Positions 30,138-53,974 of a stretch of DNA of 64,000 bases are shown here, piece after piece (position 1 is the stretch's first letter; each line of letters begins with the position of its first letter). The position numbers and the translations under genes were made by a program. The stretch covers positions 1,178,001 through 1,242,000 of the forward strand of contig NZ_CP030051.1 in assembly GCF_004114975.1 (NCBI RefSeq), in the 5' to 3' direction. The stretch is from Bradyrhizobium guangdongense. Its GTDB lineage: Bacteria; Pseudomonadota; Alphaproteobacteria; Rhizobiales; Xanthobacteraceae. The notes below the pieces were generated by a model that saw only the letters and a list, made by a program, of their open reading frames with translations, searched no databases and had not been told where the DNA came from.

Positions 30138-30773
30138 TTGGATTTCGAGGATCTCGTGACGGCGCTCGAGCCGCCGCCGAACCGCGCCGGAAAATCGGAC
30201 GGCGCCCACGAACATCATCTGTATGAGGGCGCGGTGATGGTCGCCTACGCGATGCACTTGCTCCGCACGCAGGGCGCACGGGACGTCCGTGTCCATCCCG
30301 ACGGCGAGCACGGAAAGCAGTTCGATTTCGCGGGCTGGCTGGGGCGGCGAGCGTTCACCAAGGTCTCCGGCGTCGGTAGCACCGCCTATGGCGGAGTCTA
30401 TCGAAATCCGGCGGGCCAGACGATCACCGTCAACCCGAAGTCCGGGCTCGGTGATGTCGTCGCGAATATCGGCGACCACGTCATCTCGGCCGAATGCAAG
30501 GGCGGCATTATCAACGCGCGGCATCCAGGCCAGTTGTCGCGGCTCTACCGGGGTCTTTGCGAGACCGTAGGCCTGCTGATGGCCACGCCATCGCAGGGGC
30601 GTCAGGTGGCCGTGGTTCCGCTGACGGACGGCACCTTGCGCCTGGCCGAGCGGCTCGCGCCGCGGTGCGCCTTGGCCGGCATCGAGATCGCGCTCGTCGG
30701 CAGCCGCGGCGAGGTTTTGGAAGTGAAAGCTAGAGAGGCGGCCAAGCAGGCGGCGGAAAGGAACGACACGTGA
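30138..30773 (+). CDS. PD-(D/E)XK nuclease-like protein of TIR operon
   Basis: The 211-residue protein begins at a TTG preceded by GGGGAGG at 5 nt. Residues 104-121 read LGDVVANIGDHVISAECKGG, a good PD-(D/E)XK core (D106, E119, K121). It is preceded by QFDFAGWLGR and followed by a helical RLYRGLCETVG, as in Holliday-junction-resolvase or restriction-like nucleases. Function is inferred as nucleic acid cleavage. Its stop overlaps the TIR gene start by 4 bp. No DNA-binding partner domain is visible, so specificity might come from its neighbours. Confidence 0.7.
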   Translation: MDFEDLVTALEPPPNRAGKSDGAHEHHLYEGAVMVAYAMHLLRTQGARDVRVHPDGEHGKQFDFAGWLGRRAFTKVSGVGSTAYGGVYRNPAGQTITVNPKSGLGDVVANIGDHVISAECKGGIINARHPGQLSRLYRGLCETVGLLMATPSQGRQVAVVPLTDGTLRLAERLAPRCALAGIEIALVGSRGEVLEVKAREAAKQAAERNDT

Positions 30774-31882
30774 AACGGGTGCTGACTGTCGGGCTGACTT
30801 ACACCGGCGACAAGATCGATGGCGTGGAGATCGAAAATCTCGGGCTCTGCCAGCCCGATGTCGATCGAGAGCGGGCGGCCTATCCGCTCTACGAATACGA
30901 CACGATCATCATCAATCCGGAGAGCTACACGCATTTTCTGTTCGGTAAGGCCGGAGAGTTTTCGAACGAACTTTACGAGCTGGGCAAGCTGAAGGGGCAG
31001 AATGACCGCTACGACCTCGACTCCGCCTTCGATGGCGAGGACCGACGCAAGGAGATGGAGGCCGCGATTGCGGGTGGCGCGACGGTCGTTTGGTGCCTGT
31101 CCGAGCCGAAGCGGGTGAACTTCTTCGGCTATCGCGAAACCCATCTTGGATATGTGGCGCCGAAAGTGGCGAGTTTCGTAAAGCGTTCGGAGCTTCTCAT
31201 TAAGAAGGGGCGCAGGATGGGGCCGGTCGATCTCGACAGCCCCTTCGCGCGCTATTTCGAGGTTCTGTCGCGGACCGGCGGCTGGACGCTGTGCCTATCC
31301 GATCCCGGCGAAGGCTATGGGTCGATCGCCGCGACGCCGGAGGGCTACAGCCTCGGCGGTCAGCTGATGCTCGGCACCCCGACGGGCTGGCTGCTGACGC
31401 CGCCGACGTCGCAGGAAGCCCAGAACCAGCTCGTTCGCGACAGCCTCGCGTTGGAGAAGGCCGATCCGGCGCATGAGAAGTATCACGGCATCTTCCTGAG
31501 CCATACTGGCGTCGACAAACCCTTCGTGCGCCAGCTTCGCAAGGATCTGCTCGCTCATGGCGTAGAGCATGTGTGGCTGGACGAGGCCGAAATCGACATC
31601 GGGGACTCGCTGATCGCCAAGATCGAAGAGGGGATGAAGCTCAGCCGCTACATCGCCGTCGTCCTGTCGAAAAAGTCGATCGGCGCTCCTTGGGTGAAGA
31701 AGGAGCTCGACGTGGCGATGAACCGCGAGATCGCGAGCGGCGAGGTGGTCGTGCTGCCGCTGCTCTACGAGGAATGTGAGCTGCCAGAGTTCTTGAAAGG
31801 CAAGCTCTACGCCGATTTCTCCAAGCCCGAGGAGTACGAGGCGGTCCTCGGCAAGCTTTTGCGGCGGCTCCGGATCTCCTGA
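30770..31882 (+). CDS. TIR-domain effector with unknown sensor domain
   Basis: In this 370-residue protein the C-terminal TIR domain (residues 238-370) opens with GIFLSHTGVDKPFVRQL and has the catalytic Glu in WVKKEL (about E312), expected to split NAD+. The N-terminal 230 residues have a Rossmann-like pattern (YDTIIINP, GATVVWCLSEP) and a segment TPEGYSLGGQLMLGTPTGWLLTPP that I cannot assign; it may sense infection. The stop of the upstream nuclease and the start of this gene overlap (ATGA), and its own stop overlaps the next start (TGATG), so the three genes are translationally coupled. Confidence 0.88.
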   Translation: MKRVLTVGLTYTGDKIDGVEIENLGLCQPDVDRERAAYPLYEYDTIIINPESYTHFLFGKAGEFSNELYELGKLKGQNDRYDLDSAFDGEDRRKEMEAAIAGGATVVWCLSEPKRVNFFGYRETHLGYVAPKVASFVKRSELLIKKGRRMGPVDLDSPFARYFEVLSRTGGWTLCLSDPGEGYGSIAATPEGYSLGGQLMLGTPTGWLLTPPTSQEAQNQLVRDSLALEKADPAHEKYHGIFLSHTGVDKPFVRQLRKDLLAHGVEHVWLDEAEIDIGDSLIAKIEEGMKLSRYIAVVLSKKSIGAPWVKKELDVAMNREIASGEVVVLPLLYEECELPEFLKGKLYADFSKPEEYEAVLGKLLRRLRIS

Positions 31883-33213
31883 TGAGCGAGACGGGTCCGA
31901 GAATGGCGATGCTGATGGCGATGACGGACCTGTGGCGCATACGACCGCCCGGGCCCGACAATATTCTTGCGCACCCGGCCTTCATGCGGCTGCGTGAGAT
32001 CTGCCGCGACGACTACCCAAACGCCGGCAAGAAGGGGCCGAACTTCGCGCTCTCGACGGCATTGCGGGCGTTGGGCCTTCCATGTCACCTGCAGAAGGAC
32101 ACGGCCCATCTTGCCATGCCTGTGGAGGAAGCGGCGAAGGGATTGGACGCGGCGCTGCGCGCTACCCGGGCCAGGCGCATTCACCTTGCGCCGCTCGATC
32201 TTGCCGCCGACCTGCCGCCGCACGCATTCGGTCCGGCCAGGGTGTGCCGGTTGAGCGCCGACGAGCTGCGCGGCGTGATCGATGCGCGCCGGCTGAGGCG
32301 GCTTTATCCGCGTCAGGACTTCGATGCCGAGCGCTTCGCCGAATTCCACTGGCTGATCGTTGAGGAGGTCGTGGTGCTCGAGCAGGAGCCGGAGGAACGC
32401 GCGGTCCCGGTCCTGTTCATGGACCTGAGCCTAGATCTGGGGCGGGTCGAACCGCATCAAGGGCGGTTCCCGACTGCCTTGGAAGAAGCGCTGTTCTTCC
32501 TCCTGCTGGCCCCCTGGGAGAGCTGGTCGACCATGCAGGAAGTCGATTGGCGGGGCTTCCGTGTGCCATGGGTCTACACGATCGACAGCGACATCTTCGT
32601 TCGTCCCAGTTCGCCGCCGTCCCCCGACACGTTGAGCTGGGAGGACCGGGTCTACGACGATGGCTATGGCGGGACATACGAGGAAGAGCGCCCGGTCGAG
32701 CTGCACCTAGAAGAGGATGCAAAGACCGAGCTGACGGTGTGGGACCAGAGCCGATGGACGACCGTCGAGCAGGCGAAGCAATCGGTTTTGTTTGAGACGC
32801 CGATCCCTCACTTCCTCGTCCGCGCGTTCCTGGCCGAGGGCGTGGATGAATTCCTTGCGCACATCACGACGATCGAGGCGGCGCTCGGCTTGCGCGCGGA
32901 CTATCAGAAGAATTTTCGCATCGCGCCTGACCGCCACAAAGGGATGCGCGCCACGAATAGAATTCGGGGACGGGTGGCCGGCCTGCTGGGCGATCGACGC
33001 TTCGCCGATCAGTATGAGCAGCTCTTCAACGTGCGAAGCGCATTCCTGCACGGCCGAGCCATGACCGCCATCTCGACGAAAGAGCGGGTGATGGCGCGGT
33101 CGTTGGCCCGCCAGATCGTCGAGGCGTTGATCCTTGCGACGCTCGCGGGGCCGATCAGCTCGCGGGAGGATTTCCTGGATGGTCTACTCGACAGGGGTTC
33201 GCCCTTGATCTAG
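31882..33213 (+). CDS. HEPN/ApeA-like RNase candidate
   Basis: The 443-residue protein has a long unassigned N-terminal part. A C-terminal helical domain ends in NVRSAFLHG (about 383-391), an R-x4-H of HEPN type as found in Apea-like and MAE_28990-like HEPN domains, which act as RNases or AMP transferases. DFLDGLL then ends the protein. Its start overlaps the TIR stop (TGATG). It is the last gene of the nuclease-TIR-HEPN trio; the AbiE operator follows within 41 bp. A full HEPN pair cannot be proven by eye. Confidence 0.65.
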   Translation: MSETGPRMAMLMAMTDLWRIRPPGPDNILAHPAFMRLREICRDDYPNAGKKGPNFALSTALRALGLPCHLQKDTAHLAMPVEEAAKGLDAALRATRARRIHLAPLDLAADLPPHAFGPARVCRLSADELRGVIDARRLRRLYPRQDFDAERFAEFHWLIVEEVVVLEQEPEERAVPVLFMDLSLDLGRVEPHQGRFPTALEEALFFLLLAPWESWSTMQEVDWRGFRVPWVYTIDSDIFVRPSSPPSPDTLSWEDRVYDDGYGGTYEEERPVELHLEEDAKTELTVWDQSRWTTVEQAKQSVLFETPIPHFLVRAFLAEGVDEFLAHITTIEAALGLRADYQKNFRIAPDRHKGMRATNRIRGRVAGLLGDRRFADQYEQLFNVRSAFLHGRAMTAISTKERVMARSLARQIVEALILATLAGPISSREDFLDGLLDRGSPLI

Positions 33214-33254
33214 CCGAAATAGACGGCTCCCCAGCAAGTCCGCTGGCTTGAAAA

Positions 33255-33284
33255 CTGTCAGAAAACCGCGTATATTTCTGACAG
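33255..33284 (+). promoter_or_regulatory. Perfect inverted repeat, probable AbiEi operator/promoter
   Basis: CTGTCAGAAA (33255-33264) and TTTCTGACAG (33275-33284) form a perfect 10-bp inverted repeat around a 10-bp spacer. It ends 10 bp upstream of the abiEi ATG; AGGAGAAC beside it is the ribosome site. AbiEi antitoxins are known to autorepress by binding inverted repeats in their promoters, so this is the expected operator. It may control the whole six-gene operon. Confidence 0.75.
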
Positions 33285-33294
33285 GAGAACGGCC

Positions 33295-33888
33295 ATGCAA
33301 CGGTTAACCGAACAGATTCTCGCGCATGCCGAAGGGTTGCCGGAAGGTACGCCCGTGGCGGCTAAGAGCTTGCTTCACCTCGGTAATCGCGCCGCGGTGG
33401 ATCAGGCTTTGTCGCGTCTGACTGAGCGGGGCCAACTGATCCGGGCCGGTCGCGGCGTCTATCTCCGTCCCATCACGAGCCGGTTCGGAACGAGGGCCCC
33501 CTCCGTCCAGCAAGCGGTCGAGGCGCTCGCCAACCAGCGCGGCGAAGTCATCGTCCCGAGCGGGGCGGCGGCGGCCAACACTCTCGGCCTGACGACCCAG
33601 GTGCCGGTTCGGTCGGTCTATCTAACCTCCGGCCGCAGCCGAACGATGAATCTCGGCAAACAGGTTGTCGAACTTCGTCATGCTCCGCGCTGGCAACTCG
33701 CCCTGGCTCATAAGCCGGCTGGCGAGGCGGTGCGGGCGTTGGCCTGGCTTGGGCCGGAGAAAGCGGAAGCCGCCTTGAAAACGTTGAAGCGGAAGCTCTC
33801 GCCGTCCACTTTCAGCGAACTGGTCGCGGCAGCGCCGCAGCTTCCGACCTGGCTCGCGCGCAGCGTAGGAAAGGCGGCGCATGGCTGA
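33295..33888 (+). CDS. abiEi: AbiEi-type antitoxin/transcriptional repressor
   Basis: The 197-residue protein has an N-terminal winged HTH (LTERGQLIRAGRGVYLRP, the typical AbiEi wing with the GRGVYLRP hairpin). The C-terminal domain is of the DUF6088/AbiEi_4 type. AbiEi neutralises AbiEii without stable contact (type IV toxin-antitoxin) and represses its own operon. A perfect inverted repeat sits just upstream. It overlaps the toxin gene by 8 bp, and it heads a run of overlapping defence genes. Confidence 0.85.
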   Translation: MQRLTEQILAHAEGLPEGTPVAAKSLLHLGNRAAVDQALSRLTERGQLIRAGRGVYLRPITSRFGTRAPSVQQAVEALANQRGEVIVPSGAAAANTLGLTTQVPVRSVYLTSGRSRTMNLGKQVVELRHAPRWQLALAHKPAGEAVRALAWLGPEKAEAALKTLKRKLSPSTFSELVAAAPQLPTWLARSVGKAAHG

Positions 33889-34897
33889 CGCCTTTCTCCA
33901 CCTTCCGGTCGCTGACCGCCGCGAGGCGCTAAGCGTCGCGGCCGATCAGTCGGGACGACCGGCGCACCTTCTCGAGAAGGATGTGTGGGTGGTTTGGGCG
34001 CTCGCCACGCTCTACGGGTCGGCGCTCGGCGAGCATCTGGTGTTCAAGGGCGGCACGTCACTGTCGAAGGCCTATGGGGTCATCCGGCGGTTTTCCGAGG
34101 ACGTCGACCTGACCTACGACATCCGGGCGATCGCGCCCGACCTGGTGGACGGCAACGGCGAGGCGTTGCCGAAAACACGTAGCGAGGAGAAGCGCTGGTC
34201 GAGCGAGGTGCGCAAGCGCTTGCCGGATTGGGTGGCGGGCACCGCGCAGCCGGTCGTCGCGGACGCGTTGGCTGCCGCGACGTTGGCGGCTGCCGTCCGC
34301 GTGGAAGGCGAGAAGCTGTTTGTCGACTACGAGGCGACCACCGCTGGCTCGGGCTACGTCGCACCGAGTGTGATGCTGGAGTTCGGGGCGCGATCAACGG
34401 GCGAGCCGGCGAGCCTCCGCGACATCAAATGCGATGCATCCGGCCTGGTTGAAGGCGTAACGTTCCCAACAGCGCGGCCGCGCGTGATGCACGCCGAGCG
34501 GACCTTCTGGGAGAAGGCGACGGCTGTCCACGTCTTCTGCCTCCAGCAGCGGCTGCGCGGTGATCGCTTCGCACGCCACTGGCATGACATAGCGCGTCTG
34601 GATGACGCCGGCCTGGCGGATGCGGCTTTCGCCGATAGGGAGCTGGCGAACGCGGTCGCGCGCCACAAGGGCATGTTCTTCGTTGAGAGGGCGGCCGATC
34701 GAAGTCCGATCGATTATGCGGCTGCCGTGAATGGCGGTTTGCAGCTCGTGCCTGGCGGTGATGCCGCGAAGGCGCTGGAAGAAGATTATGGTCGCATGGT
34801 CGAGGACGGTCTGCTGTTGGAAGATGCTGAAACCTTCGAGGTCCTCATGGCGCGGAGTGCAGATGTCGCGCGCCGGGCAAACGAGGCGGCGAAATAG
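33881..34897 (+). CDS. abiEii: AbiEii nucleotidyltransferase toxin
   Basis: This 338-residue nucleotidyltransferase-fold toxin has the AbiEii/AbiGii motif FKGGTSLSKAY (55-65) and RFSEDVDL (70-77), which holds the metal-binding acidic pair. AbiEii arrests growth by modifying tRNA (shown for related toxins such as MenT). It starts within the end of abiEi (8-bp overlap). The next gene, a SIR2 protein, follows after 18 bp, so toxin and SIR2 module share a transcript. Confidence 0.9.
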   Translation: MADAFLHLPVADRREALSVAADQSGRPAHLLEKDVWVVWALATLYGSALGEHLVFKGGTSLSKAYGVIRRFSEDVDLTYDIRAIAPDLVDGNGEALPKTRSEEKRWSSEVRKRLPDWVAGTAQPVVADALAAATLAAAVRVEGEKLFVDYEATTAGSGYVAPSVMLEFGARSTGEPASLRDIKCDASGLVEGVTFPTARPRVMHAERTFWEKATAVHVFCLQQRLRGDRFARHWHDIARLDDAGLADAAFADRELANAVARHKGMFFVERAADRSPIDYAAAVNGGLQLVPGGDAAKALEEDYGRMVEDGLLLEDAETFEVLMARSADVARRANEAAK

Positions 34898-34915
34898 AGA
34901 TTTGGGGGGAATGCG

Positions 34916-36220
34916 GTGGCGGATGCAGACAAGACGGAGCCATCGAAGCTCACATTCAAGTTTATTCGCGGCGTCGAGGGTGAGAAGGCTGATTATGATT
35001 GGCCTGATGGGGCGGATATTGTCAGAAAGGCGTTGGCTGAGTCACTGAATGCCAAAAATGTGGCGTTCCTCCTGGGAGCTGGCTGTTCTTCGTCGTGGGC
35101 TAATGACAAGGAGGTCGGCATCCCAACGATGGCGCCCCTCGCGAAGGAATTCACGGCGGCACCGAAGGAAGGGGATCAATCGTTCCCGACAGCCGACGAA
35201 CGTGATGCTCTGTTGAAGCAGTTTGGAATCGACCTCGGTGCCGCGGAGTATGCGCGCAACCTAGAGCGGCTGATGGAGCTTCTTTTCAGCCTGCGCTTCG
35301 TCTTAGTGCGCAGTTCGCTGAGTGATGCCGCCACAAGACTCAAGACTGTCGAATCGATCATCAAGAAGGTTCAAACATTTCTTTGGGCCAAATGCACGAA
35401 CGGCGCCTTCGCGAATGGCGACCATACCGTCGTTGGCCTTTATGAATCCTTCTATCGCAAGCTTGTGCTGCGCGACCGATCTCTTCCGCGTCCTTGGGTG
35501 TTCACCACGAACTACGATCTCTTCAACGAGACCGCAATGGATAGGCTCGGCCTGCCATACACGAACGGCTTCTCCGGCGTTGTCGAACGGCGGTTCAATC
35601 CAGCGACGTTTCGGTACGCCCTCGCTGAACAGCTCGATGTCACCAGCCGCAAGTGGTCTGCGGTCGATGGCTTTGTCTATCTGTGTAAGATTCATGGGTC
35701 CATTAGTTGGACAGAGGACGATCACGGACTTTTCCCGATCCGAGAAACGGCCGTCTCCAAAGAACCGGGCAAGGTGATGATCTATCCGACGCCTGCCAAG
35801 CAGAATTCGAGCCTTGGGTCTCCCTATGCCGATCTGTTTCGGGAATTCCAGTCACGCATTGTTCGCGAACAGAGCGTGCTATTTACGATGGGGTATGCCT
35901 TCGGCGACGAGCACATCAACAATATCATCTATCAGGCCCTGACGATTCCCACGTTCCGGCTCGTGATCTTTGTAGATCCAGATTTGGACGGGGAGATTGC
36001 GAAGCTTCGCGCGCTAAATGATCCACGAATTTGGATCATTGGGGGTGCCGGACGCAGCGCCGGACGCAAAGCCCATTACTTCGACACCATTATCGAAGAG
36101 TTCATGCCGCAACGCCCGAGCGAGCGCATTGATGACGCCGTTCGGAAGGTGATCGAGGCGATGGCCCCGAAGAAGGAGGCCGCGGCTCCCCAGAAGGGGG
36201 AGGATGACGATGAGTCGTGA
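34916..36220 (+). CDS. SIR2-domain protein of a SIR2-HerA pair
   Basis: The 434-residue protein has GAGCS (54-58) and a GIPTM loop at 68-72, TTNYD (197-201) and the catalytic His of KIHGS (260). Then comes a MGYAFGDEHIN segment (about 323) typical of SIR2_2-type defence proteins. It ends in a charged Lys/Glu-rich tail that overlaps herA by 17 bp. It probably is an NADase controlled by the HerA ring. The GTG start is preferred, with GGGGGGA upstream. SIR2 plus HerA pairs (Nezha) are known antiphage systems. Confidence 0.9.
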   Translation: MADADKTEPSKLTFKFIRGVEGEKADYDWPDGADIVRKALAESLNAKNVAFLLGAGCSSSWANDKEVGIPTMAPLAKEFTAAPKEGDQSFPTADERDALLKQFGIDLGAAEYARNLERLMELLFSLRFVLVRSSLSDAATRLKTVESIIKKVQTFLWAKCTNGAFANGDHTVVGLYESFYRKLVLRDRSLPRPWVFTTNYDLFNETAMDRLGLPYTNGFSGVVERRFNPATFRYALAEQLDVTSRKWSAVDGFVYLCKIHGSISWTEDDHGLFPIRETAVSKEPGKVMIYPTPAKQNSSLGSPYADLFREFQSRIVREQSVLFTMGYAFGDEHINNIIYQALTIPTFRLVIFVDPDLDGEIAKLRALNDPRIWIIGGAGRSAGRKAHYFDTIIEEFMPQRPSERIDDAVRKVIEAMAPKKEAAAPQKGEDDDES

Positions 36221-38240
36221 CGATCGGAAGCGCGCAATCGGCAAGGTGGTCTCGGTCGCGGCCGACCGTTTCGTGATCGAGATGCATGCGGGCACCGACA
36301 ACTTCACCGTCGTCGGATTCGACGACGTTCACTATGTCGCCAGGCTCGGATCGTTCCTGATGGTCGCGGTGCAAACCGAGTACGTGGTTGTCGAGGTCGT
36401 CGGCCTGCGTGAGCGCGACGTTGGTCATGTTAGTCGCAGTGAAGGGGAGCTGGATAAGGCTTCTTCGGCGAAGTACCTCGATGTCGTTCCCGTCGGGATG
36501 CTGCCTCAAGATCGGCGCGAAAGGTTTCGCTTCGGCGTCTCCGTGTTCCCGTCACTCTACGGCGACGCACTGTATGCGCTGGACGCTGAACTGGATCGAG
36601 TCTTCGAAACCGATCATCCTTCGGAGCCTACACCCCCGATCGACAATGTTCCACCCACGCCACCTGATGCCACCCGCTATCGCGCATTGACGATCGGCCG
36701 GTCCGTCATATTCGAGGGTTACGACGTTAAGGTCAGGATCGATGATTTCTTCGGCGGACACACTGCCGTCCTGGGAAACACAGGGAGCGGGAAGTCCTGC
36801 ACGGTCGCATCGGTCCTCCAATCCTTGTTCGAAAAGGCGGAAGAACACCATGCTCGCGGTGCCACGTTCGTCGTATTCGACGTCAATGGAGAATATGCGA
36901 AGGCGCTGTCGCCGCTCGCAAAGCGCAAGCAGATCGGCGTGGACCATGTCATTCTGGACGGCACCGCACGCACGGAGCGTTTTCGTCTGCCCCATTGGTT
37001 TCTGGAGCAGTCAGAGTGGGAGCTGCTTCTGCAGGCCAGCGAGCGCACCCAACTACCGATACTGCGCATGGCGCTCGGGCTGGCAACATTGTTCTCAGCG
37101 GGCAGCGCGGCGGAGCTGAAGGGGATCAAGAACCACATTCTGGCAACCTGCCTGAGCCAAATTCTTCGTGACGACACAGGCAGTCCGTCAAAACACGATC
37201 GCATGGTCGGTCTGCTGCAAAGATTCAACACGCCGGAGATCAACAATCAAAAGATCGCGCCATTCATCAAAATCGGCTTCGGCCAGATGGCCAACCCTGC
37301 CGGTTTAACAACCTATTTGTTGGGAAACGCCAATGGCGGCGGATTTATCATCGAAGGTTTGAAATTCCCGGCATATGCCAACCTTCCCTTTGAGTTTTCC
37401 GCGTTGGGAGAGGCGCTCGATCTGGCGATCCTATACGAGGAGGCTCACGGTAACCGTCAGATCCGAGATTACTGCTCGCAGATGCTGACGCGTTTTAAGT
37501 CGCTCGAGGAGCGACCTGAATATGCGTTCCTGCGCTACGACCTTCAAGGAAGCCAAGCTGGGCCGTCGCTCGAAAACTTCCTTGAGCAGCTCCTCGGTTT
37601 GGCACGCGACGGAGCGGGTTGGGTCAAACGCAACCAGATCGTCATCATCGACATGAATGCGGTGGAGGATGAGGTTGTCGAGCTCGTAGCGTCAGTGCTC
37701 GCTAGAATGGCCTTTCGGCTGCTCCGACAAGCAGATCCACGCAATCGGTTTCCGATCCATCTGCTTCTTGAGGAAGCGCATCGATACATCGCGGAGAAGC
37801 CATCCCGCTATGCCATAGACGCCAGCAGAGTTTACGAGCGGATTGCCAAGGAAGGGCGAAAGTACGGGCTGTTCATTCTCGCCGCTTCGCAGAGGCCCAG
37901 TGAACTCTCGAAGACCATTCTTTCGCAGTGCTCGAATTTCGTCATCCATCGAATCCAGAATCCCGACGACCTTGCTCATATACGGCAGATGACCCCGTTC
38001 ATCTCCGAGGCGGTCCTGAAGCGGCTCCCGTCGCTTCCGAAGCAGCATGCGCTGGTCTTCGGCACCTCCGTGAACCTTCCCACGACCTTTCGCGTGCGCG
38101 ACGCAAATCCTTTGCCTGCAAGCGATGACGCGAGAATTAGAGATTTGTGGTTCCATGAGGAGGGGCGAGCGGCTCAGGTTCGCATTACGCCGGCAACTTT
38201 CGAACATGGCGATGATAGCGTCGCGGCTGAGGGGAAATGA
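36204..38240 (+). CDS. herA: HerA-family hexameric ATPase/translocase
   Basis: This 678-residue HerA has an N-terminal HAS-barrel (about 1-110), Walker A GNTGSGKS (191-198), VVFDVNGEY (about 222), a helical insertion with many conserved segments, and Walker B LLLEEAHRYI (about 515) followed by ASQRPSELSKTILSQCSNF. Such proteins form hexameric DNA pumps; paired with SIR2 they activate NADase. The start overlaps the SIR2 end and the stop overlaps the next gene (ATGA), which implies equal production. Confidence 0.92.
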   Translation: MTMSRDDRKRAIGKVVSVAADRFVIEMHAGTDNFTVVGFDDVHYVARLGSFLMVAVQTEYVVVEVVGLRERDVGHVSRSEGELDKASSAKYLDVVPVGMLPQDRRERFRFGVSVFPSLYGDALYALDAELDRVFETDHPSEPTPPIDNVPPTPPDATRYRALTIGRSVIFEGYDVKVRIDDFFGGHTAVLGNTGSGKSCTVASVLQSLFEKAEEHHARGATFVVFDVNGEYAKALSPLAKRKQIGVDHVILDGTARTERFRLPHWFLEQSEWELLLQASERTQLPILRMALGLATLFSAGSAAELKGIKNHILATCLSQILRDDTGSPSKHDRMVGLLQRFNTPEINNQKIAPFIKIGFGQMANPAGLTTYLLGNANGGGFIIEGLKFPAYANLPFEFSALGEALDLAILYEEAHGNRQIRDYCSQMLTRFKSLEERPEYAFLRYDLQGSQAGPSLENFLEQLLGLARDGAGWVKRNQIVIIDMNAVEDEVVELVASVLARMAFRLLRQADPRNRFPIHLLLEEAHRYIAEKPSRYAIDASRVYERIAKEGRKYGLFILAASQRPSELSKTILSQCSNFVIHRIQNPDDLAHIRQMTPFISEAVLKRLPSLPKQHALVFGTSVNLPTTFRVRDANPLPASDDARIRDLWFHEEGRAAQVRITPATFEHGDDSVAAEGK

Positions 38241-40891
38241 GTCGACGATCGATAGTTGTCGAAGGGCCGCTTGCATTCCGTACAGCGCGGATCGCTGCCG
38301 CACAGCGAGCGGATTCTGGGCTGCAGATTTTCACACTTCCACTGCTTGCTGCACGTCTCGCCGGAGGCTTTAACCGACCGGCGCGATCCCAGGACCTCGA
38401 CCCAGCCATTCGCGCTGCACTCGCCGCCGGCGGCTTGACGGAGCTCGAAGGTATCCGTCAGCTTCCGGGCACGACACGGTCAATCGCCCGCACGCTCGCA
38501 AAGGTTTGGCAAGCCGACCTCGATCTTGAGGGGCTCGCTAGCCACAATGCTCGGCTTGCCGAGCTTGCGGAGGTCGAGCGCCGCGTTCGCGCCAACCTCC
38601 CAGCAGGGGTTCTGACACCGCGCGACTTGCGCGATGCCGCAATTGCGCACGCGGCCCATGCGGCTGCAGCGCTCGGGTCAATCGATATCGATCAGCTCAG
38701 TGAGATTGCATCGGTCTGGCGTCCGCTTCTTGCGACGCTCGCGAAGACGGTCCCACTCGCTTGGCGCAATCCTGGAACCTCCGATGCGAACTGGTTTCCG
38801 GGCCAGTTAATTACCAGCGACCGCGAGATGGCTGCGGACATATCCTTAGTTTCCTGCGCGAACCCGCGCGCCGAAGCAGTCGAAGCGCTACGTTGGATGC
38901 GTGAACTCATTGCCTCTGGCCGCGCGCGACCCGATGAGATCGCGATCTGTGCCACGGCCACCGAGGACTGGGACGAGCACTTCCTGGTTCTCGTCGCGGA
39001 CGCGGATCTCCCACTCCATTTCTCGCACGGCGTGCCGGTCCTCGCATCGCGCGAGGGACAAGCGTGCGCCGCACTTGCCGACGTCCTGCTCAACGGGCTT
39101 GGCCAGGATCGCCTCCGGCGACTGTTCGGCCATGCCGCGGGTCGAAGCCGTGCCTTGGCCGACTTGCCTGCGGACTGGTCGCTCGGCCTCCAGCCTGGTG
39201 CGGCGCTGTTCGAGATTGATCAGTGGCAGCGCGCGCTTGACGAGGCGACCGGCCGCCGCGCCGACGCAGGCGATCCAAGACCGGTCGTGATGCCCATTCT
39301 GCGGCTGCTTGCGAGTGGCCCCGAGGCGGCTGCGCAGGCCGGCGCGATGCTATTGGGCACAGCGGCCCGTGCGCTCTGGACCGAGGCGCTTCGACGCGCG
39401 CCGGCCGAAGGGCTCGAATTCTCACTAGAGGACTTGCGGCTGCCCGATGGACGCGATCCAGGCGCGAGCGCTGTCTGGTGCCCGGCGAGCCACCTTGCAG
39501 GTGCGCCGCGTCCCTGGGTGCGCCTGCTCGGCATGACATCGCGCTCTTGGCCGCGCCGCACGGCCGAGGACCCACTGATACCGGCCCACATCCTGCCGCG
39601 CTCTGTGCTTGACCCTGATCCCGTCGCCGAGCAAGATCGACGCGCCTTTGCCGTCATCACCAGTCAGGCGGCGCGCGGCTGCGTTCTCTCGCGAAGCCGG
39701 CGTAACGCTCAAGGTGGGCAGTTGTCCGCCAGCCCGCTGATCCCGCAGAGCGCATCTTTGCAGATCCTGAAGCGGGCGCGCATTCCGCAGCATGCATTCA
39801 GCGAGGCCGATCGTCTTCTTGCACGGCCGGACGAAGCGGCGACATCGCCGGCGCTCACCGCAGCCAATCTCTGCTGGCGCAACTGGCGGCGCCCGATCGT
39901 CACCGCCCACGATGGCCAGGTTCGCGCAGACCATCCCCAAATCGTCCGCGCAATCGGTGATGTCCAGTCCGCCACCTCCTTGCGGCTGATGTTGCGCGAT
40001 CCGCTCGCCTTCGTCTGGCGCTACGCGCTGGGCTGGCGCGCGGTCCCAGAAGACGATCAGCCCCTCACGCTGGACGCACGCTCTTATGGTGAGCTGGTCC
40101 ATGAGTTGCTGAAGCGCACGGTTGATGCGCTCGAACCTGTGCCGGGCTATGCGCGTGCGTCCCGGGAGGAAATCGAAGCTGCGCTCGCGACCTCGACGGA
40201 GACGGTCCGCACGCATTGGCCACTCAAGCGATCGGCGCCGCCCGCGTTGCTCTGGAAACACACGCTCGCTGCCGCAGCTCAGCTCGCCCTCAAGGCACTG
40301 ACGCTTGACGAGACGTTCCAACCCGGTACGCGAAGCTGGACGGAGCTTGCTTTCAGTCAAGCTGGCGATGGTGCGATGGCACACGATCTACCCTGGCGCC
40401 CCGATTCCCTTGTTACGATTCCCGGTACCCAGGTGCGCATCCGAGGCAATATCGATCGGCTCGATCTCACCGGCGACCGTCGCGGCGTGCGCGTGTCGGA
40501 CTATAAGACCGGCGTAGAACCGCGCCGAGCGGAGGAGATCGTGCTTGGCCGCGGTGCGGAGCTTCAGCGCGTCATCTATTCGGTCGCGGCCAGTCAGTTG
40601 CTCCCCGACAATCCGCGCGTGATCGCGCGCCTCGTCTTTCTCGGCAACAAAGAGCCGAGGCCCTATCGCCTACCGGACGTCGACCAGGCGATCGCCGAAC
40701 TCGGCGGGCATGTCACGGCGGCCATCACCCTCCTGCGCGGTGGCCATGCCCTGCCTGGCCCCGACGCTCAGGAAGAGCACAATGACTTCCGCATAGCCCT
40801 GCCGTCGTCGCCAGCAGCCTATCTTCAGCTCAAGAACGGCGCGTTCATGCGCGCTTTCGGAGGGTTTGCACGAGTGTGGGGCTGCCGATGA
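38237..40891 (+). CDS. AddB-like nuclease subunit
   Basis: The 884-residue protein resembles AddB/RecB-like subunits. The N-terminal 600 residues look like a degenerate helicase without intact Walker A. The C-terminus holds a RecB-type nuclease, IRGNIDRLDL (about 734) and VSDYKTG (about 754), matching GxxDRxD and DYKTG of PD-(D/E)XK. The four cysteines that bind Fe-S in classical AddB are not seen. Its gene overlaps both neighbours by 4 bp. It most likely forms a heterodimer with the UvrD-like product of the next gene. Confidence 0.8.
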   Translation: MSRRSIVVEGPLAFRTARIAAAQRADSGLQIFTLPLLAARLAGGFNRPARSQDLDPAIRAALAAGGLTELEGIRQLPGTTRSIARTLAKVWQADLDLEGLASHNARLAELAEVERRVRANLPAGVLTPRDLRDAAIAHAAHAAAALGSIDIDQLSEIASVWRPLLATLAKTVPLAWRNPGTSDANWFPGQLITSDREMAADISLVSCANPRAEAVEALRWMRELIASGRARPDEIAICATATEDWDEHFLVLVADADLPLHFSHGVPVLASREGQACAALADVLLNGLGQDRLRRLFGHAAGRSRALADLPADWSLGLQPGAALFEIDQWQRALDEATGRRADAGDPRPVVMPILRLLASGPEAAAQAGAMLLGTAARALWTEALRRAPAEGLEFSLEDLRLPDGRDPGASAVWCPASHLAGAPRPWVRLLGMTSRSWPRRTAEDPLIPAHILPRSVLDPDPVAEQDRRAFAVITSQAARGCVLSRSRRNAQGGQLSASPLIPQSASLQILKRARIPQHAFSEADRLLARPDEAATSPALTAANLCWRNWRRPIVTAHDGQVRADHPQIVRAIGDVQSATSLRLMLRDPLAFVWRYALGWRAVPEDDQPLTLDARSYGELVHELLKRTVDALEPVPGYARASREEIEAALATSTETVRTHWPLKRSAPPALLWKHTLAAAAQLALKALTLDETFQPGTRSWTELAFSQAGDGAMAHDLPWRPDSLVTIPGTQVRIRGNIDRLDLTGDRRGVRVSDYKTGVEPRRAEEIVLGRGAELQRVIYSVAASQLLPDNPRVIARLVFLGNKEPRPYRLPDVDQAIAELGGHVTAAITLLRGGHALPGPDAQEEHNDFRIALPSSPAAYLQLKNGAFMRAFGGFARVWGCR

Positions 40892-43800
40892 CACTCGCCG
40901 ACGATCCCGCACGGCTTCGCATCCTGACTGATCTCGACGCCACGTTGCTCGTCGAGGCCGCCGCCGGCACCGGCAAAACGGCGCTAATGGCCGGACGCCT
41001 GACCATGCTGCTCGCGCGTGGCACCGAGCCCGGCGCGATCGCCGCGATCACTTTCACAGAGCTTGCCGCGAGCGGGCTGGCGACGCGCGTGCAACGCTAT
41101 GTCGAGGAGCTGCTTGCGGGACGTGTGCCTCAACCTTTGCGGCTTGCTCTGCCCAACGGACTAAACGTGGACCAACGACGCGCACTTTCCGGTGCAGCGG
41201 CGAAGCTCGACGAACTGACAACCGCCACCATTCACGCATTTTGCCAGACGATCATCTCCAGCTATGCGGTTGAGGCCGACATTGATCCGGGCGCGCGCAT
41301 TCTTGACGCCGTTCAGGCGGCGGCGGCCTTCGATTCCGTCTTCGAGCAGTGGCTGAAACGGCGATTGAATGCGCCCGAGCGGCCAGGCGATGCCATCGCG
41401 ACACTCTCGCGCGATGATCCGCGTCGCATCGTCGATACTCTTCAGGAACTCGCACGCTTCCGTCTCAGATATCGCGGCGCACGCGCTCTGCCCGCCGAGC
41501 TCGGCGGTCGGCCCGACATCGACCTGGTCGACGCCGTCGCGGACTTCCGACGCTGGATTTCGTCGCAGCCGGTCGAGCCCAAGACCCTAGAATTGGTCGG
41601 AGAGCTTGAGACGCTCGCCAACTTCTACGCCGGTAGTTTCGACCCTCCACCGGATTTTGCCACGCTCTGGCGTCTCGCCCATCCGCCACAGCTCGCGTGC
41701 ATGCGCCGACACAGTTTCGATCTTCTCACGCCGAGACGGAAATCAGCTTGGGAGCGTGTCGCGGGCAAAGAGCGAGGCGCGCTCCTCAATGAAGAGGCGA
41801 CCGCATGCTTTGAGCGGGTCAATCGCTGCTACCGGACCGTTCTTGGTCGGTTCGCGACCGCGCTTGTCGCCCAGCTTGCGGCCGAGCTCGACGAAGTACT
41901 CGATGACTACGCCGCCTTCAAACGGGCCGCTGCAGTCTTGGACTTCGACGACTTGCTCGAGAAGGCGCGTGCGCTGGTGCGCCAGCATGACGACGTGCGC
42001 CGCGCGCTTGGAGAACGCTATCGCCACATCTTCGTCGACGAATTTCAGGACACCGACCCTGTTCAGACAGAGATCCTCTTCGGGATCGCGGGGAAGGATC
42101 GCGCCGGACGCTGGCAGGACAGCGTGCTGCGTGCCGGGGCTTTATTCATGGTCGGTGACCCGAAGCAGGCAATCTATCGCTTCCGAGGCGCCGATATCGG
42201 CTCATACTCGCAGGCGCGCGCCGCTGTTGAGCGGCAATTGCCGGAAAATATCGTTCAGGTCACCGCCAATTTTCGTTCGCGTCCCGACATCCTTAGGCAC
42301 ATCAACCGCTGCTTCGCGCGCCCGTTGTCGGGAGAAGGCCAGCCCGGTTACGTGCCGCTCACGTCGACGCTCGGCGACCCCGATCATGATCTGCCCTGCG
42401 CGGCGCGAATCACAGTGGATGTGCCGCCTGATTCTCGGCCCGCTCAAATCCGCGACGCGGAGGCCGAAGCCGTTGCCGATCTCTGCACCCGCCTTATCGG
42501 CAATCTCCCTATCCGCGACGAGGACGGCGCAATCGTACCGCTCACTGCCGGCGGCATCGCCCTGCTTGCGCCAACTGGCGCCGAGCTTTGGCGTTATGAG
42601 CGCGCGCTCGAGCAGCGCGGGCTGCCGATCGCCTCGCAGGCCGGCAAGAGTTTGTTCCGCCGGCAAGAAGTGCAGGACCTGCTCGCGCTAGCTCGCGTAC
42701 TCGCCGACGCTGGCGACACATTGGCCTTCGGCGCGCTGCTGCGTGGCCCACTGGTCGGGCTTACTGAGGAGGAGCTACTCGACATCACCGTGGGTCTTCC
42801 GCCGCATCTCGATCGCGCCGAAGCGCCCCAGCGCTTCTCGGTGCTGACCGATGTCGATCATGTCGCCCATCCTCTGGCACGTCGCACGCTCGCGATCCTA
42901 CAAGACCTCAGAAAACGCGTGCGGGCGACCACGCCTGCGCTGCTCTTGGCCGAAGCGATCGAACGCCTCGCGGTCCGTGCAACCCTCGCCGCGCGCGAGG
43001 GTGATCGTAGTGCGCGCGCGGCCGCCAATCTCGAAGCGTTCCTGGAACGTGCGCGGCCTTACGGTGTGCGAGGCCTCAGGAAGTTCGTTCGGGATCTCGC
43101 CCGGGAATGGCGCGACGGCGTGCCCCACAATGAGGGACGAGTTGATGCGGAAGGCGATGCGATCGAAATCATCACGATCCACAGCGCTAAGGGTCTCGAA
43201 TGGCCGGTGGTAATTCCGATCAACACCGGCACCTTGCTGCGCTCGCGCGAGGCATTCGTCTACCGCGCCGACGACGAAACACTGCATTGGCTGATTGGCG
43301 ACGTGGTTCCGCCGGAACTGCTTCGCGCACTCGAGTCTGAAGACGATAGCTTGGCCCGCGAGCGGGAGCGCCTCTGGTATGTCGCCTGCACGCGCGCCCG
43401 CGAACTTCTGATCGTTCCGGAATTGCCTCAGGCTGAGCAGCGGTCCTGGGCACGGATCGTTGATCTTGCGCATCGGGACTTGCCGCAGCTTGTCCTGTCG
43501 CACTTGACGCCGGTCGCCCGCGTGACCGACGTCGCGCCTCCGAATACGCAGACGCCGGAGCTGTTCGGGGCAGAGCGTGCCGCGATCGCCGCCGCGGCGA
43601 TGCCGCTCCAGTGGCTGCGGCCAAGCGATCACGATCCTGATCGAGCGCCAAGAGGTGAGGCGATCGCGATGGAGCCTGGCGAAGCCCCAGAAACCGAATT
43701 GCCGGTCGGCGCCGGCCGCGTGCGGGGCCTTATTCTCCACAAGCTGATGGAGGAGATGCTTACCGGCGAACTGGCCGAGGAGATGCCGGTCGTCGCTGCA

Positions 43801-44202
43801 CGTGCGCGAGTGCTGATGACGCAGCTTATAATTGATGCTGACAACGGAGCGAAGCTTCCGGACCCAGAGGAAATAGCGGTGACCGTCGCGCGCACCCTTG
43901 CACTGCCCGAAATCGCCGCACTCAGGCCAAGCCTCGCTCCGGAGTGGCCAATTTATGCGATGCTCTCGGCTTCACCCGCGGCGACTGCGCTGGCTGGGCG
44001 GATAGATGCCATCGCTGTTCAAGATGGTCAGCCTGCCGTTGTCCTGGATTGGAAGAGCGATGTCGCGCCCAGCGAGCAGGATAGGCGCGATCATGCCGCT
44101 CAGCTGAGCGACTATCTTCGTGCCACAGGAGCACCTCGGGGCGCCGTGGTTTACATGACGGATGGCGTCATTCGGTGGGTCACGACTAGAACGCCACGGT
44201 AA
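40888..44202 (+). CDS. AddA-like UvrD helicase with C-terminal nuclease
   Basis: The protein is about 1104 residues. It has AAAGTGKT (Walker A, near 30), VDEFQDTD (about 385), VGDPKQAIYRFRGAD, HSAKGLEW (about 767) and ERLWYVACTRAR, a complete SF1A helicase. The C-terminal PD-(D/E)XK nuclease has GRIDAIAV and VVLDWKSD (about 1036-1056). The ATG at 40888 (ATGA overlap with the addB-like stop) is chosen over a GTG 4 codons earlier. It is the last gene of the operon. A host AddAB homologue would not normally sit with SIR2-HerA, so it is probably a defence enzyme. Confidence 0.88.
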   Translation: MTLADDPARLRILTDLDATLLVEAAAGTGKTALMAGRLTMLLARGTEPGAIAAITFTELAASGLATRVQRYVEELLAGRVPQPLRLALPNGLNVDQRRALSGAAAKLDELTTATIHAFCQTIISSYAVEADIDPGARILDAVQAAAAFDSVFEQWLKRRLNAPERPGDAIATLSRDDPRRIVDTLQELARFRLRYRGARALPAELGGRPDIDLVDAVADFRRWISSQPVEPKTLELVGELETLANFYAGSFDPPPDFATLWRLAHPPQLACMRRHSFDLLTPRRKSAWERVAGKERGALLNEEATACFERVNRCYRTVLGRFATALVAQLAAELDEVLDDYAAFKRAAAVLDFDDLLEKARALVRQHDDVRRALGERYRHIFVDEFQDTDPVQTEILFGIAGKDRAGRWQDSVLRAGALFMVGDPKQAIYRFRGADIGSYSQARAAVERQLPENIVQVTANFRSRPDILRHINRCFARPLSGEGQPGYVPLTSTLGDPDHDLPCAARITVDVPPDSRPAQIRDAEAEAVADLCTRLIGNLPIRDEDGAIVPLTAGGIALLAPTGAELWRYERALEQRGLPIASQAGKSLFRRQEVQDLLALARVLADAGDTLAFGALLRGPLVGLTEEELLDITVGLPPHLDRAEAPQRFSVLTDVDHVAHPLARRTLAILQDLRKRVRATTPALLLAEAIERLAVRATLAAREGDRSARAAANLEAFLERARPYGVRGLRKFVRDLAREWRDGVPHNEGRVDAEGDAIEIITIHSAKGLEWPVVIPINTGTLLRSREAFVYRADDETLHWLIGDVVPPELLRALESEDDSLARERERLWYVACTRARELLIVPELPQAEQRSWARIVDLAHRDLPQLVLSHLTPVARVTDVAPPNTQTPELFGAERAAIAAAAMPLQWLRPSDHDPDRAPRGEAIAMEPGEAPETELPVGAGRVRGLILHKLMEEMLTGELAEEMPVVAARARVLMTQLIIDADNGAKLPDPEEIAVTVARTLALPEIAALRPSLAPEWPIYAMLSASPAATALAGRIDAIAVQDGQPAVVLDWKSDVAPSEQDRRDHAAQLSDYLRATGAPRGAVVYMTDGVIRWVTTRTPR

Positions 44203-44513
44203 AATTCGTGAGGCGGTCTTTTGGACGCTCCCGATCGGGGCTGCCCACCCGGCTAAGCACTGCAAACGGGTTGCGTTATGACGGCGTGGCTTTCACGACG
44301 GCAGATTTTTGGGGGTCATACCGATCTTCGTCGTAGTCTGTAGGAAAATCGGCGAGCTCGGTCTGCTTTGTATTTATCAGGCGTTTTGGCTGCGCCTGAT
44401 GATAGATGGCGAAAGGTTCTCTTTCCACCTTGAACAAAGAACTCAGCAATTTCAGCGCAATTGGCGCGCAGCGCGTTGACAATTTGGACGCAGCCCAAAA
44501 TACGTGTCAGATA
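44203..44513. other. Convergent gap between AddAB-like operon and Mokosh-like pair
   Basis: Two operons end towards each other here. A 68-residue minus-strand reading (44276-44482) has acceptable composition (EREPFAIYHQ...TELADFPTDYDEDRY) but no domain and no clear ribosome site. I count it as unsupported. No strong terminator hairpin stands out. Confidence 0.35.
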
Positions 44514-46253
44514 CTAATCGTCGAGTTGACTCTCGAACTTCATTAGGAGGAACTCGGCTATGCCAGGCCCTTCCAAATGGAGGCCGATCTCGTCGAGAGG
44601 ATTATCCGGTGAACCCGACTGAGAGCCCCAATTCATCGTGCTCACCACGACGTGATCTCTGTCCCACAAAAGAAACTTTGCATGGACTTGCGGATCCTCC
44701 ACGGCGATCAGATCGACTACACCATGTAGCCGTTCGCGGTGGGCCTTGACGTGCCGCCGTTTGATCGGCCCGGTCTGGCGCGAGTAGTAAACACGGACGT
44801 CGTCGAGTCGGCGTCCTGCGATTTCGGCGGGGTTAAAGATCGCCGGCACCATGGGAGCTCCGACCTTGTTGGTACAGCAGACAAATCGCTCTTCGGCTTC
44901 GTGAGCAACCCTCCGAATCAATCGCTCATGATCGTCAGCCTGGAGAATGCTCATCCGAACTGGAATACTCCCTCCAGCATCGGCGCTAGATGTTAAGGCG
45001 CTCCGCGAGCGCCTTAAATCCGATGCTATGAATTGGAGCGTCTCAATCGAACGGCTGGCGCTTGAAAGAGGTGACACGATAGAACGCAAAAGATCCAGGC
45101 CCGCCGCGGCCGCGCGGTTCTCTGTCAGCTCGACAGACACCTCCAAGGCAGAAAAGGGCGACGACAGCCAATTGGAGGAGCCGAGCACGACGACAGCGCC
45201 GCCGTGGCCGTCATCCGCGGCAAGGCATTTCACATGGCTTCGAACAGAATCGCGCTGCGTGAACACAAAGCCACGCGCGCGACGGACCGACGAGAGCCGC
45301 ATATTGAGCTCCTGCATCGCGATCGCGTTCTTTCTGTCGGTGTCTAGCGCAGTACCGTAGAACAAGTGGCAGCGCACGCCACGCTGCGCAGCCTGTTCAA
45401 GAGCTTTTCGAATGCGTTCATGTTGCTCCGTGTATTTTTCGCCGTGAAGCGTCACAAAAGTCGAAAGTACGAAAACGTCTTCCTCGGCCTGACCCACGAT
45501 GCGTTCGAAGCATTCGAGATGCTGTTCGCCGCCGACGATCAATTGATCGGTGCCAATCATCGTATCGACGGTCACTGACCGGCTTGGCTGCGGATCGCTA
45601 GCTTCCGGCAGAATACCAGTCCTGATTGTTGCTTGAAGAGCGCCGATCAAGTCCTGGCTGGCCCCCTCAGGGAGCAATCCGTTCTTGACGTCGTTCAGTT
45701 CGATCGCGAGATATTTTCTTTCGAGAACGGAGTTGATCGTTTGAACGCCGCGCAGCCATTCGCCGGGACGGAGCATGCCGGCGACGAGCTGCGTTACGCG
45801 GACCGCCATTGTGTCATCGGTCTCATCTGGGCCCGGAGGAAAGTTGACCTTGTGATCTGTATGGGTCATCCGATAGAGTGGAGCGGTCTCGACGTCGCGG
45901 TTGCGAAAGACCGAGTGTCCGACCTTCTCCAGCACTAGACTGATGTGAATCTCCCGATCTTCAGTTCGCTCCGGCAAGGCGCCACCCAACCGGATGAAGT
46001 CTTGACCGACGCCGCTTGTCGCCAATTGAGGGACAGGAGCCAGGCGAAGCTCGACCAGGCCGAACTGCATCAACCGCGCGATGGTCGAGCCCGCGACCTG
46101 GCTTGGAATCCCGAGCGACGTTGCCACCTCTTCGATCGTTTCTGGGGTGCGATCGAGCGCGAGCAGGATCATTTCTTCGATTGGACTCCATCCCCATGTG
46201 CGTTGAACGATGGCGCGCGCGCGATAGTGCCAAGCGGGAAGGTAGATTTTCAC
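44514..46253 (-). CDS. PLD-family nuclease (MkoB-like)
   Basis: This 579-residue protein has a winged-HTH-like N-terminus (about 20-75). Two HKD motifs follow: HVKCLAADDG...GSSNW (about 343) and HAKFLLWDRD...STMNW (about 522), together forming a complete phospholipase-D nuclease active site. It begins by overlapping the end of the kinase-helicase gene by 4 bp. In Mokosh type I a kinase-helicase (MkoA) is followed by a PLD nuclease (MkoB), so this fits MkoB. The exact length of the family is not known to me. Confidence 0.82.
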   Translation of the reverse strand: MKIYLPAWHYRARAIVQRTWGWSPIEEMILLALDRTPETIEEVATSLGIPSQVAGSTIARLMQFGLVELRLAPVPQLATSGVGQDFIRLGGALPERTEDREIHISLVLEKVGHSVFRNRDVETAPLYRMTHTDHKVNFPPGPDETDDTMAVRVTQLVAGMLRPGEWLRGVQTINSVLERKYLAIELNDVKNGLLPEGASQDLIGALQATIRTGILPEASDPQPSRSVTVDTMIGTDQLIVGGEQHLECFERIVGQAEEDVFVLSTFVTLHGEKYTEQHERIRKALEQAAQRGVRCHLFYGTALDTDRKNAIAMQELNMRLSSVRRARGFVFTQRDSVRSHVKCLAADDGHGGAVVVLGSSNWLSSPFSALEVSVELTENRAAAAGLDLLRSIVSPLSSASRSIETLQFIASDLRRSRSALTSSADAGGSIPVRMSILQADDHERLIRRVAHEAEERFVCCTNKVGAPMVPAIFNPAEIAGRRLDDVRVYYSRQTGPIKRRHVKAHRERLHGVVDLIAVEDPQVHAKFLLWDRDHVVVSTMNWGSQSGSPDNPLDEIGLHLEGPGIAEFLLMKFESQLDD

Positions 46254-50991: not shown

Positions 50992-51717
50992 TCACGTCGT
51001 CGGCCCTATTGGGTCTTCCTTGACGCCGCGAGCGACGACCCGGAGGCTTCCGTCCGGAAGCGGCCTTTGCAATTTCAGTACTTCGTCCGCAGGGGCCGTC
51101 ATCCAGGTCTCGACTTCATCTGGCGTTGTCAGGATCACCGGCATCGCCTTGGGGTGGATGGCGCCGACCTCGGCGTTGGGCTCCGTCGTGAGGAACGCGT
51201 AGAGGTCGTTGGTCGTCTCGCCTTCCTTGACCTTCCGGACGGACGTCCAGTTGGTCCAGATACCGGCGAAGCAGGCGAGGGGACGTGTCTCATCGAGCGC
51301 GAACCAGATATCACCGCCCTCGGCCTTGTTGAACTCGCTGAACGAGTTGAACGGCACCACGCAGCGATTTTCAGTCCCCAGCCATCGCGTCCAGTGCTTG
51401 CTCTTCACATTGCGGATGTTGGTCGTGCCGCCGTCCGGCTCCATTCGCAGCAATTCCTTGAAATCCACTGCCTTGCCCTTGGCCTGCAGCTTCTCGGCTC
51501 GCTTCTTCGTGGCGTCCATCAGCGCCTTTGATGACGACGGCATTCCCCATCGCGCCGTAGCGAGCTCGCGGCCCTCCACTCCGTTGCGCACGATCGGTGC
51601 CTTGTAGTCGGGAAAATCCCCCGGCATCGGCGCCAGATTTCCAACGTATCGGTTGACAACGCGGAACAGCGCGTTGATCGCGGCTTGATTGGTCGTGATC
51701 GAATAAAGATTGCACAT
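50992..51717 (-). CDS. SRAP (YedK/HMCES family) DNA-protein crosslink protein
   Basis: This 241-residue SRAP-domain protein starts MCNLYSI, so Cys2 is exposed after Met removal and can crosslink to abasic sites in ssDNA. It has the conserved NARSE-like region (here [20 protein letters not shown]), the GIWTNW segment, and the active-site His-containing [11 protein letters not shown] motif. Such proteins shield abasic sites and prevent strand breaks. It is next to a dinB relic, Ku and two ligases, a repair neighbourhood common in rhizobia. It is transcribed in the same direction as the two small genes to its right. Confidence 0.93.
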
Positions 51718-51720
51718 CGG

Positions 51721-52170: not shown

Positions 52171-52216
52171 CCAGACATCCAGGCGCAAAGAGATCGGATC
52201 GGCAAATCCAGAGCGG

Positions 52217-53967: not shown

Positions 53968-53974
53968 GAGCCAT

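Follow-up and report, generated by a model that had tools for sequence, protein, structure and literature searches.

A six-gene array on a mobile island of Bradyrhizobium guangdongense combines AbiE and SIR2-HerA modules with a candidate AddAB-like helicase-nuclease module

The window analysed here, a 64,000-nucleotide stretch of Bradyrhizobium guangdongense contig NZ_CP030051.1 (positions 1,178,001 to 1,242,000 of the forward strand), contains an array of six co-directional genes encoding AbiEi, AbiEii, SIR2, HerA, an AddB-like nuclease and an AddA-like helicase-nuclease (Table 1). Overall, the array appears to consist of known modules newly combined on one mobile island, together with a candidate helicase-nuclease module that is apparently undescribed. 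We consider it likely that the six genes make up three separable modules, AbiEi-AbiEii, SIR2-HerA and AddB-AddA, set head to tail and acting in parallel under one promoter, and not components of a single machine. This three-module reading is favoured because each module also occurs without the others, and because DNA homology and GC content change at the module borders.

Separate occurrence and borders of the modules

The distribution of SIR2-HerA was assessed in 16 loci, six from 397 genomes of the order, three from 385 genomes of the class and seven from plasmids (the best six full-length matches and one broken match, of 649 plasmid records); the class-sample hit G570 coincides in its coordinates with L087, and the locus was counted once. 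Both genes were present in all 16, HerA being broken in L090, and the closest relatives found were 64-80% identical in SIR2 and 65-77% in HerA. Leaving out the distant L102 gives a close set of 15 loci (HerA 48-76% identity), nine of which have neither AbiE nor AddB adjacent to the pair. AddB-AddA adjoined SIR2-HerA in 0/15; AddB was inside the fetched stretch of one close locus, L073, 10 kb off and on the opposite strand. The order AbiEi-AbiEii-SIR2-HerA recurred in six of the 15 (L078, L079, L085, L086, L087 and L101), five of which have an ArdC/ParB-N element backbone in common and are thus not independent, representing approximately one lineage. AbiE itself occurs with no co-directional gene directly behind it (L176) or with other cargo in that position (L175).

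AddB and AddA were found together in 87/87 fetched loci, including the second copy in the B. guangdongense genome and two broken loci. The 84 loci that are non-identical (the island copies L112, L113 (= L005) and L166 (= L011) were left out) correspond to at most 83 distinct ones, because L155 and L092 agree in plasmid length as well as in coordinates. HerA was directly in front of AddB in none of these 84, SIR2- or HerA-type matches occurred anywhere in the fetched stretch of only five (L010, L069, L073, L075 and L130), and a HerA-superfamily gene directly adjoined AddB-AddA only in L069 and L010. The six-gene order was seen, in the loci compared, solely in near-identical copies of one island, and a six-gene system as a conserved unit was rejected since HerA-AddB adjacency was absent from both the 84 and the 15 loci. 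An earlier, sequence-only reading had proposed that AddAB-like processing feeds HerA and SIR2; the linkage across genomes by which it was to be judged is lacking in these samples. The same reading placed AbiE at the head of a larger unit, and this survives in part: AbiE heads a SIR2-HerA operon, with a related promoter and repeat, in the six close loci named above, but not a six-part machine.

The borders of the modules are visible in the DNA. In AbiE-bearing relatives homology extends, in pieces, from 33241-33248 to 38173-38183, and in SIR2-HerA relatives overall it ends at 38167-38183. The AddB-AddA block at 38246-44160 is 82% identical to L010, which has no match to the window outside the block, and the joint between the modules is located to within about 65 bp. 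GC content is 66% in AbiE, 56-57% in SIR2/HerA and 64-66% in AddB/AddA. In unrooted trees, in which some nodes had support of only 0.50-0.80, the AbiE of the window groups with the exonuclease-bearing L101, its SIR2 with the AbiE-less L084 and L100 (support 0.80) and its HerA with L084, L077 and L100 (support 0.97). These placements suggest that AbiE joined this SIR2-HerA lineage separately, or that the nearest kin lost AbiE.

Table 1. Genes and sequence features of the array (window coordinates).
Feature	Position	Strand	Basis
AbiEi antitoxin/regulator (DUF6088, AbiEi_4)	33295-33888	+	ORF and profiles
AbiEii nucleotidyltransferase toxin	33881-34897	+	ORF and profiles
SIR2 NADase-type subunit of Nezha-like SIR2-HerA pair; N199, H260	34916-36220	+	Profiles, PDB relatives, motifs
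HerA/DUF87 ATPase subunit; Walker A 191-198	36204-38240	+	Profiles, PDB relatives, motifs
AddB-like PD-(D/E)XK protein (PF12705); D740, D755, K757	38237-40891	+	Pfam, alignment
AddA-like UvrD helicase with C-terminal PF12705 nuclease	40888-44202 (alternative GTG start 40876)	+	ORF, Pfam, motifs
Promoter TTGAAA-N17-TATATT with inverted repeat 33255-33264 / 33275-33284, putative AbiEi operator	33248-33284	+	
Junction	38183-38246	+	Homology to SIR2-HerA relatives stops at 38167-38183; homology to L010 AddB-AddA begins at 38246

Gene families, promoter and predicted activities

The open reading frames (ORFs) bear out the six co-directional genes described earlier, with successive gaps of -8, +18, -17, -4 and -4 bp. 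The last value applies to the ATG start of the AddA-like gene, which yields a 4-bp overlap, and becomes -16 with the GTG at 40876; both starts are possible. Profile matches agree with the earlier family calls for AbiEi (PADLOC PDLC02226, 1.4e-69, plus DUF6088), AbiEii (PDLC02289, 1.3e-97), SIR2 (PDLC04090, 1.1e-228) and HerA (PDLC04102, E=0). SIR2 displays GAGC at 54, TTN199YD and H260, so that the catalytic Asn and His are both present and the numbering originally given for the latter is correct. The AddA-like protein matches UvrD (1.7e-49) and PF12705 (7.8e-6), and its Walker A (31-35) and nuclease residues (D1044, D1058 and K1060) are intact. PF12705 (PDDEXK_1, 1.1e-20) is the sole Pfam domain of the AddB-like protein, which had no match to PADLOC profiles, NCBIfam or PDB sequences (PDB at E <= 1); its three nuclease residues are invariant in 31/31 aligned relatives. 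The designation AddB is by name only, reflecting size, position and the putative nuclease domain. Neither the Rfam scan nor the tRNA scan of the window gave a match.

A perfect 10-bp inverted repeat, CTGTCAGAAA-N10-TTTCTGACAG, is present ahead of the array at 33255-33284, as had been noted before, and overlaps a sigma70-like TTGAAA-N17-TATATT (33248-33276) that is the sole site on the + strand in 30500-44700. The scan for such sites returned two on both strands versus a shuffle mean of 2.2, which is no excess, and support for the promoter therefore comes from the related promoter/repeat element that precedes abiEi in 6/6 relatives compared (L078, L079, L085, L086, L087 and L101). When the 82-bp intergenic stretch was mononucleotide-shuffled, perfect 10-bp repeats with a loop of <= 20 arose in 3/2000 shuffles. 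The repeat is perfect in the window alone, the right arm having one or two mismatches in the six relatives, and the AbiEi operator thus remains a prediction. The six genes probably form one transcription unit. It is reported that Streptococcus agalactiae AbiEi represses its own operon via inverted repeats in the promoter (PMC3985639), while in an integrative and conjugative element (ICE) of S. suis AbiEi binds its promoter and AbiE helps ICE retention (PMC11062541). The array resembles the AbiE type IV toxin-antitoxin in the overlap of the AbiEi and AbiEii genes (8 bp here) and in an inverted repeat on the promoter; it differs in its repeat, with 10-bp arms and a 10-bp spacer here against 11-bp arms and a 27-bp spacer in S. 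agalactiae (PMC3985639), and in the longer operon downstream.

SIR2-HerA most closely resembles Nezha (SIR2-HerA, GAO_19), with which it has in common a SIR2 containing GAG, TTNYD and HG motifs and a HerA encoded alongside (17-bp overlap here); the nearest solved relatives are 8yhx for SIR2 (6e-40) and 9c1m, 8yho and 8xau for HerA. In contrast to Nezha, the pair of the window has AbiE before it and AddB-AddA after it, and with 146 of 500 bits and 217 of 800 bits it stays below the equivalog cut-offs of NCBIfam. As a Nezha system the pair would be expected to form a 12:6 complex and to hydrolyse NAD+ when infection occurs. The Vibrio cholerae system is described as requiring SIR2 N168 and H227, together with HerA, and Nezha-type SIR2-HerA as depleting NAD+ (PMC11559045).

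In the three-module reading AbiEi-AbiEii, a predicted type IV toxin-antitoxin pair, would supply a self-repressed promoter, and SIR2-HerA, as a Nezha-type NADase/ATPase pair, would form a single complex and use up NAD+ upon infection. AddB-AddA would be a free-standing, mobile helicase-nuclease pair, distantly related to host AddAB, that loads on free double-strand DNA ends, unwinds and degrades them; it would fill the position behind HerA that a DEDDh-type exonuclease has in many relatives. Expression would be shared and the outputs parallel, comprising NAD+ depletion, DNA-end degradation and, if the operon were disturbed, AbiE growth arrest. A second AddAB that is not bound by phage anti-RecBCD proteins may provide a useful backup.

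The AddB-AddA pair and the position behind HerA

The AddB-AddA pair is similar to AddAB/RecB in that a UvrD helicase carrying a PF12705 nuclease at its C-terminus is encoded beside a second PF12705 protein, and the best solved relative of the AddA-like protein is AddA (3u44, 5e-33). Canonical AddAB membership was, however, rejected. The AddA-like protein scores 245.8 of the 860.75 bits set as the alphaproteobacterial AddA cut-off, the AddB-like protein has no TIGR02786 match at 0.001, and only its nuclease part aligns with host AddB (hhalign probability 40%, E 3e-4). The host has an AddAB of its own, in which AddB scores 1324.9 bits and AddA 1482.8 bits, each above cut-off. UvrD-Cas4 (PF12705) fusions (Hudaiberdiev et al. 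2017, PMC5704561) also combine a UvrD helicase with a PF12705 nuclease, and are reported to occur in type III restriction/WYL contexts, where they are proposed to be ancillary parts of several defence systems; in this comparison, made without a tree, the pair described here differs in having two genes with two PF12705 domains and not one fusion. Enzymes of the AddAB type process DNA ends; according to a review, they help to make pAgo guides and CRISPR spacers (PMC12948488), and Gabija defence has been connected, in a preprint, with the activity of RecBCD on DNA ends (PMC12407980).

The AddB-like gene occurs in 62/265 genomes of the genus (fragments included), 13/397 of the order and 2/150 of the phylum, the last being the B. 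guangdongense genome and one more of the class. It is also present in 62 plasmid records, the loci of 17 of which were analysed, and the family comprises 849 proteins at E <= 0.001 among 8000 candidates scored. No relative was found in phage records or viral contigs (the viral-contig search covering close relatives only). Neighbours of the pair were sampled by single-query tblastn in sets of 32 and 52 loci, the latter from the genus, as raw counts with no random-gene control. Matches in the two sets, respectively, were 11 and 3 for ZacA, 9 and 0 for HmaA, 14 and 8 for WYL, 5 and 6 for GajA-type proteins, 0 and 9 for Ku (counted within about 9 kb in the genus set) and 0 and 7 for SRAP; few families were represented among ten upstream AddB neighbours in each of two samplings. 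In L010 (6670-18212) TIR-APAZ, a short pAgo, a 104-aa ORF, AddB-AddA and a HerA-like ATPase follow one another in one direction. The second AddB-AddA of the B. guangdongense genome (L063, G000:C1:686001-706000) lies between Shango SngC-like and Lamassu LmuB/LmuA-like genes.

From its sequence and distribution the pair is a candidate defence or DNA-end-processing module, apparently undescribed and widespread. Tentatively, and with rather more doubt than confidence, we propose that it is an undescribed defence module of alphaproteobacteria. It would be a second, mobile AddAB, directed against free phage DNA ends and inserted next to a range of defence cores (Azaca, Hma, SPARTA-like, Lamassu, Gabija-like and AbiE). 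Behind SIR2-HerA it would stand in for a DEDDh-type exonuclease, and that position would then be an exchangeable nuclease slot coupled to HerA. It could be argued instead that AddB-AddA serves mobile elements in DNA repair or establishment, as an accessory AddAB acting with Ku, LigD and SRAP and not in defence. Such a role, which is compatible with a stack of three modules, is consistent with the Ku and SRAP matches in the 52 non-identical genus loci, with the genes for SRAP, Ku and two ATP-dependent DNA ligases at 50992-58358 of the window, and with the typing of 53 of the 62 plasmid records as conjugative or mobilizable. It accords less well with the lack of Ku in the set of 32 (background rates for Ku and defence genes are not in these counts), with the HmaA, ZacA and WYL matches in part of that set, with the Lamassu- and Shango-like neighbours in L063 and the TIR-APAZ/pAgo pair in L010, and with the fact that the host already has its own AddAB; we regard it as doubtful. 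The SRAP, Ku and ligase genes of the window may themselves be end-joining cargo.

The position directly 3' of HerA is occupied by an exonuclease in 8/15 close SIR2-HerA loci, the gene being in pieces in L077 and L078. Wherever both genes are whole the exonuclease overlaps HerA by 14-17 bp, and the protein in L086 matches Pfam RNase_T and PADLOC DEDDh. L084 retains a 47-residue exonuclease remnant behind HerA, and among the 15 there was no exonuclease match in L080, L081, L088, L089, L090 and L100. It should be emphasized that many plasmids carry a member of the exonuclease family (354 records at E <= 1e-40), so its position behind HerA is an association and not proof of a complex. HerA and a DUF4297 nuclease are reported to form a single complex of about 1 MDa (PMC11291478), which leaves room for a HerA-coupled nuclease slot. 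Among the matches listed from the open-access literature, none described SIR2-HerA together with AddAB-like genes, and none the combination AbiE-SIR2-HerA-exonuclease.

The mobile island and the coupling of its modules

To judge from its near-identity across genera, the island is mobile and has recently spread. Positions 28237-50888 of the window are 99.996% identical in L003, L005, L007, L009 and L011 (Afipia, Bradyrhizobium and a Bradyrhizobiaceae metagenome-assembled genome, MAG) and 99.95% identical in L004 (a Sphingorhabdus MAG), while L008 and L012 (a Rhizorhabdus MAG) match at 99.6-99.9% over parts of the island; the rows from MAGs may reflect binning errors. In genomes G832, G833 and G903 identity begins at 17264-17268, marking the left edge, and persists at 64000, placing the right edge beyond the window.

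Other cargo surrounds the array. A Mokosh-type pair, MkoB/MkoA (PDLC03922, 1.5e-89; PDLC03920, 1.6e-214), is encoded at 44514-49723 on the - strand, convergent to the operon. At 30770-33213 (+ strand) a TIR protein gene overlaps that of a 443-aa protein without a family match; among the matches listed, both genes lie under the match on 11 Agrobacterium plasmids, and an Agrobacterium Ti plasmid has them as an overlapping pair. A gene related to that for the 443-aa protein stands ~60 bp in front of AddB in L135 and L139. The idea, drawn from these two loci, that the TIR gene had been newly inserted before the 443-aa gene was dropped, as the Agrobacterium pair makes loss in L135 and L139 as likely. 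The left part of the island encodes, on the - strand, a second SIR2_2 protein (596 aa, 23174-24964) and a DUF4238 protein (19955-21253). The segment 25043-25547 resembles a partial duplicate at the cargo border.

The array may be a mere chance stack in a hot spot for defence cargo, its order and overlaps being without function. At 25043-25547 and again at 59344-62486 the window has matches to the ArdC/ParB-N element backbone found in L078, L079, L085, L086 and L087, and the Mokosh and TIR modules adjoin the array, as such a stack would predict. The related AbiE promoter element in six relatives, the precise ATGA junction and the exonuclease directly behind HerA in 8/15 relatives argue against chance alone, which we judge unlikely.

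Several observations weigh against full independence of the three modules. The strongest is co-occurrence: among the 397 order genomes the AddB-like gene is present in 4/7 with a close SIR2-HerA versus 9/390 without (Fisher p = 2e-5), 'close' being SIR2 at >= 51% identity, a limit set after the hits were known and with no control family. Without the B. guangdongense genome the value is 3/6 (p = 4e-4), and at SIR2 E <= 1e-20 it is 5/13 versus 8/384. The distance from AddB to SIR2-HerA in the four genomes is 0, ~10 kb, ~50 kb (on one contig, in the L079 genome) and ~790 kb, and the co-occurrence fits either a loose partnership or the residence of both in genomes rich in defence genes. In L069 a SIR2-HerA pair of a distant family lies 0.2 kb behind AddA, in L010 a HerA-like DUF87 ATPase is directly behind AddA, in L075 a distant SIR2-HerA pair is 6.6-8.3 kb from AddB-AddA, and in L130 SIR2/HerA matches are 2.2-3.7 kb from it. 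AbiE-type pairs of other families adjoin AddB-AddA behind AddA in L013 and before AddB in L131, and may indicate a separate AbiE-AddAB link. Finally, the 4-bp ATGA overlap of HerA and AddB suggests translational coupling, which a chance stack does not need.

These points, namely the tight overlaps, the genome co-occurrence, the AddB-AddA-SIR2-HerA order of L069 (with another SIR2-HerA family) and the HerA-like ATPase that follows AddB-AddA behind the TIR-APAZ/short-pAgo pair of L010, would also favour one integrated six-part machine, in which AbiE exerts control and phage DNA ends, unwound in AddAB-like fashion, feed HerA and set off the SIR2 NADase, but with HerA directly before AddB in 0/84 other loci, AddB adjacent in 0/15 close SIR2-HerA loci and the six-gene order limited to near-identical island copies, such a machine is highly improbable.

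The three-module reading of this array illustrates how known modules that were joined recently can give the appearance of a new defence system of several genes. It also draws attention to a common, as yet unnamed helicase-nuclease pair that may have a role in defence or in the repair of mobile elements, and to a nuclease position behind SIR2-HerA that may be exchangeable.

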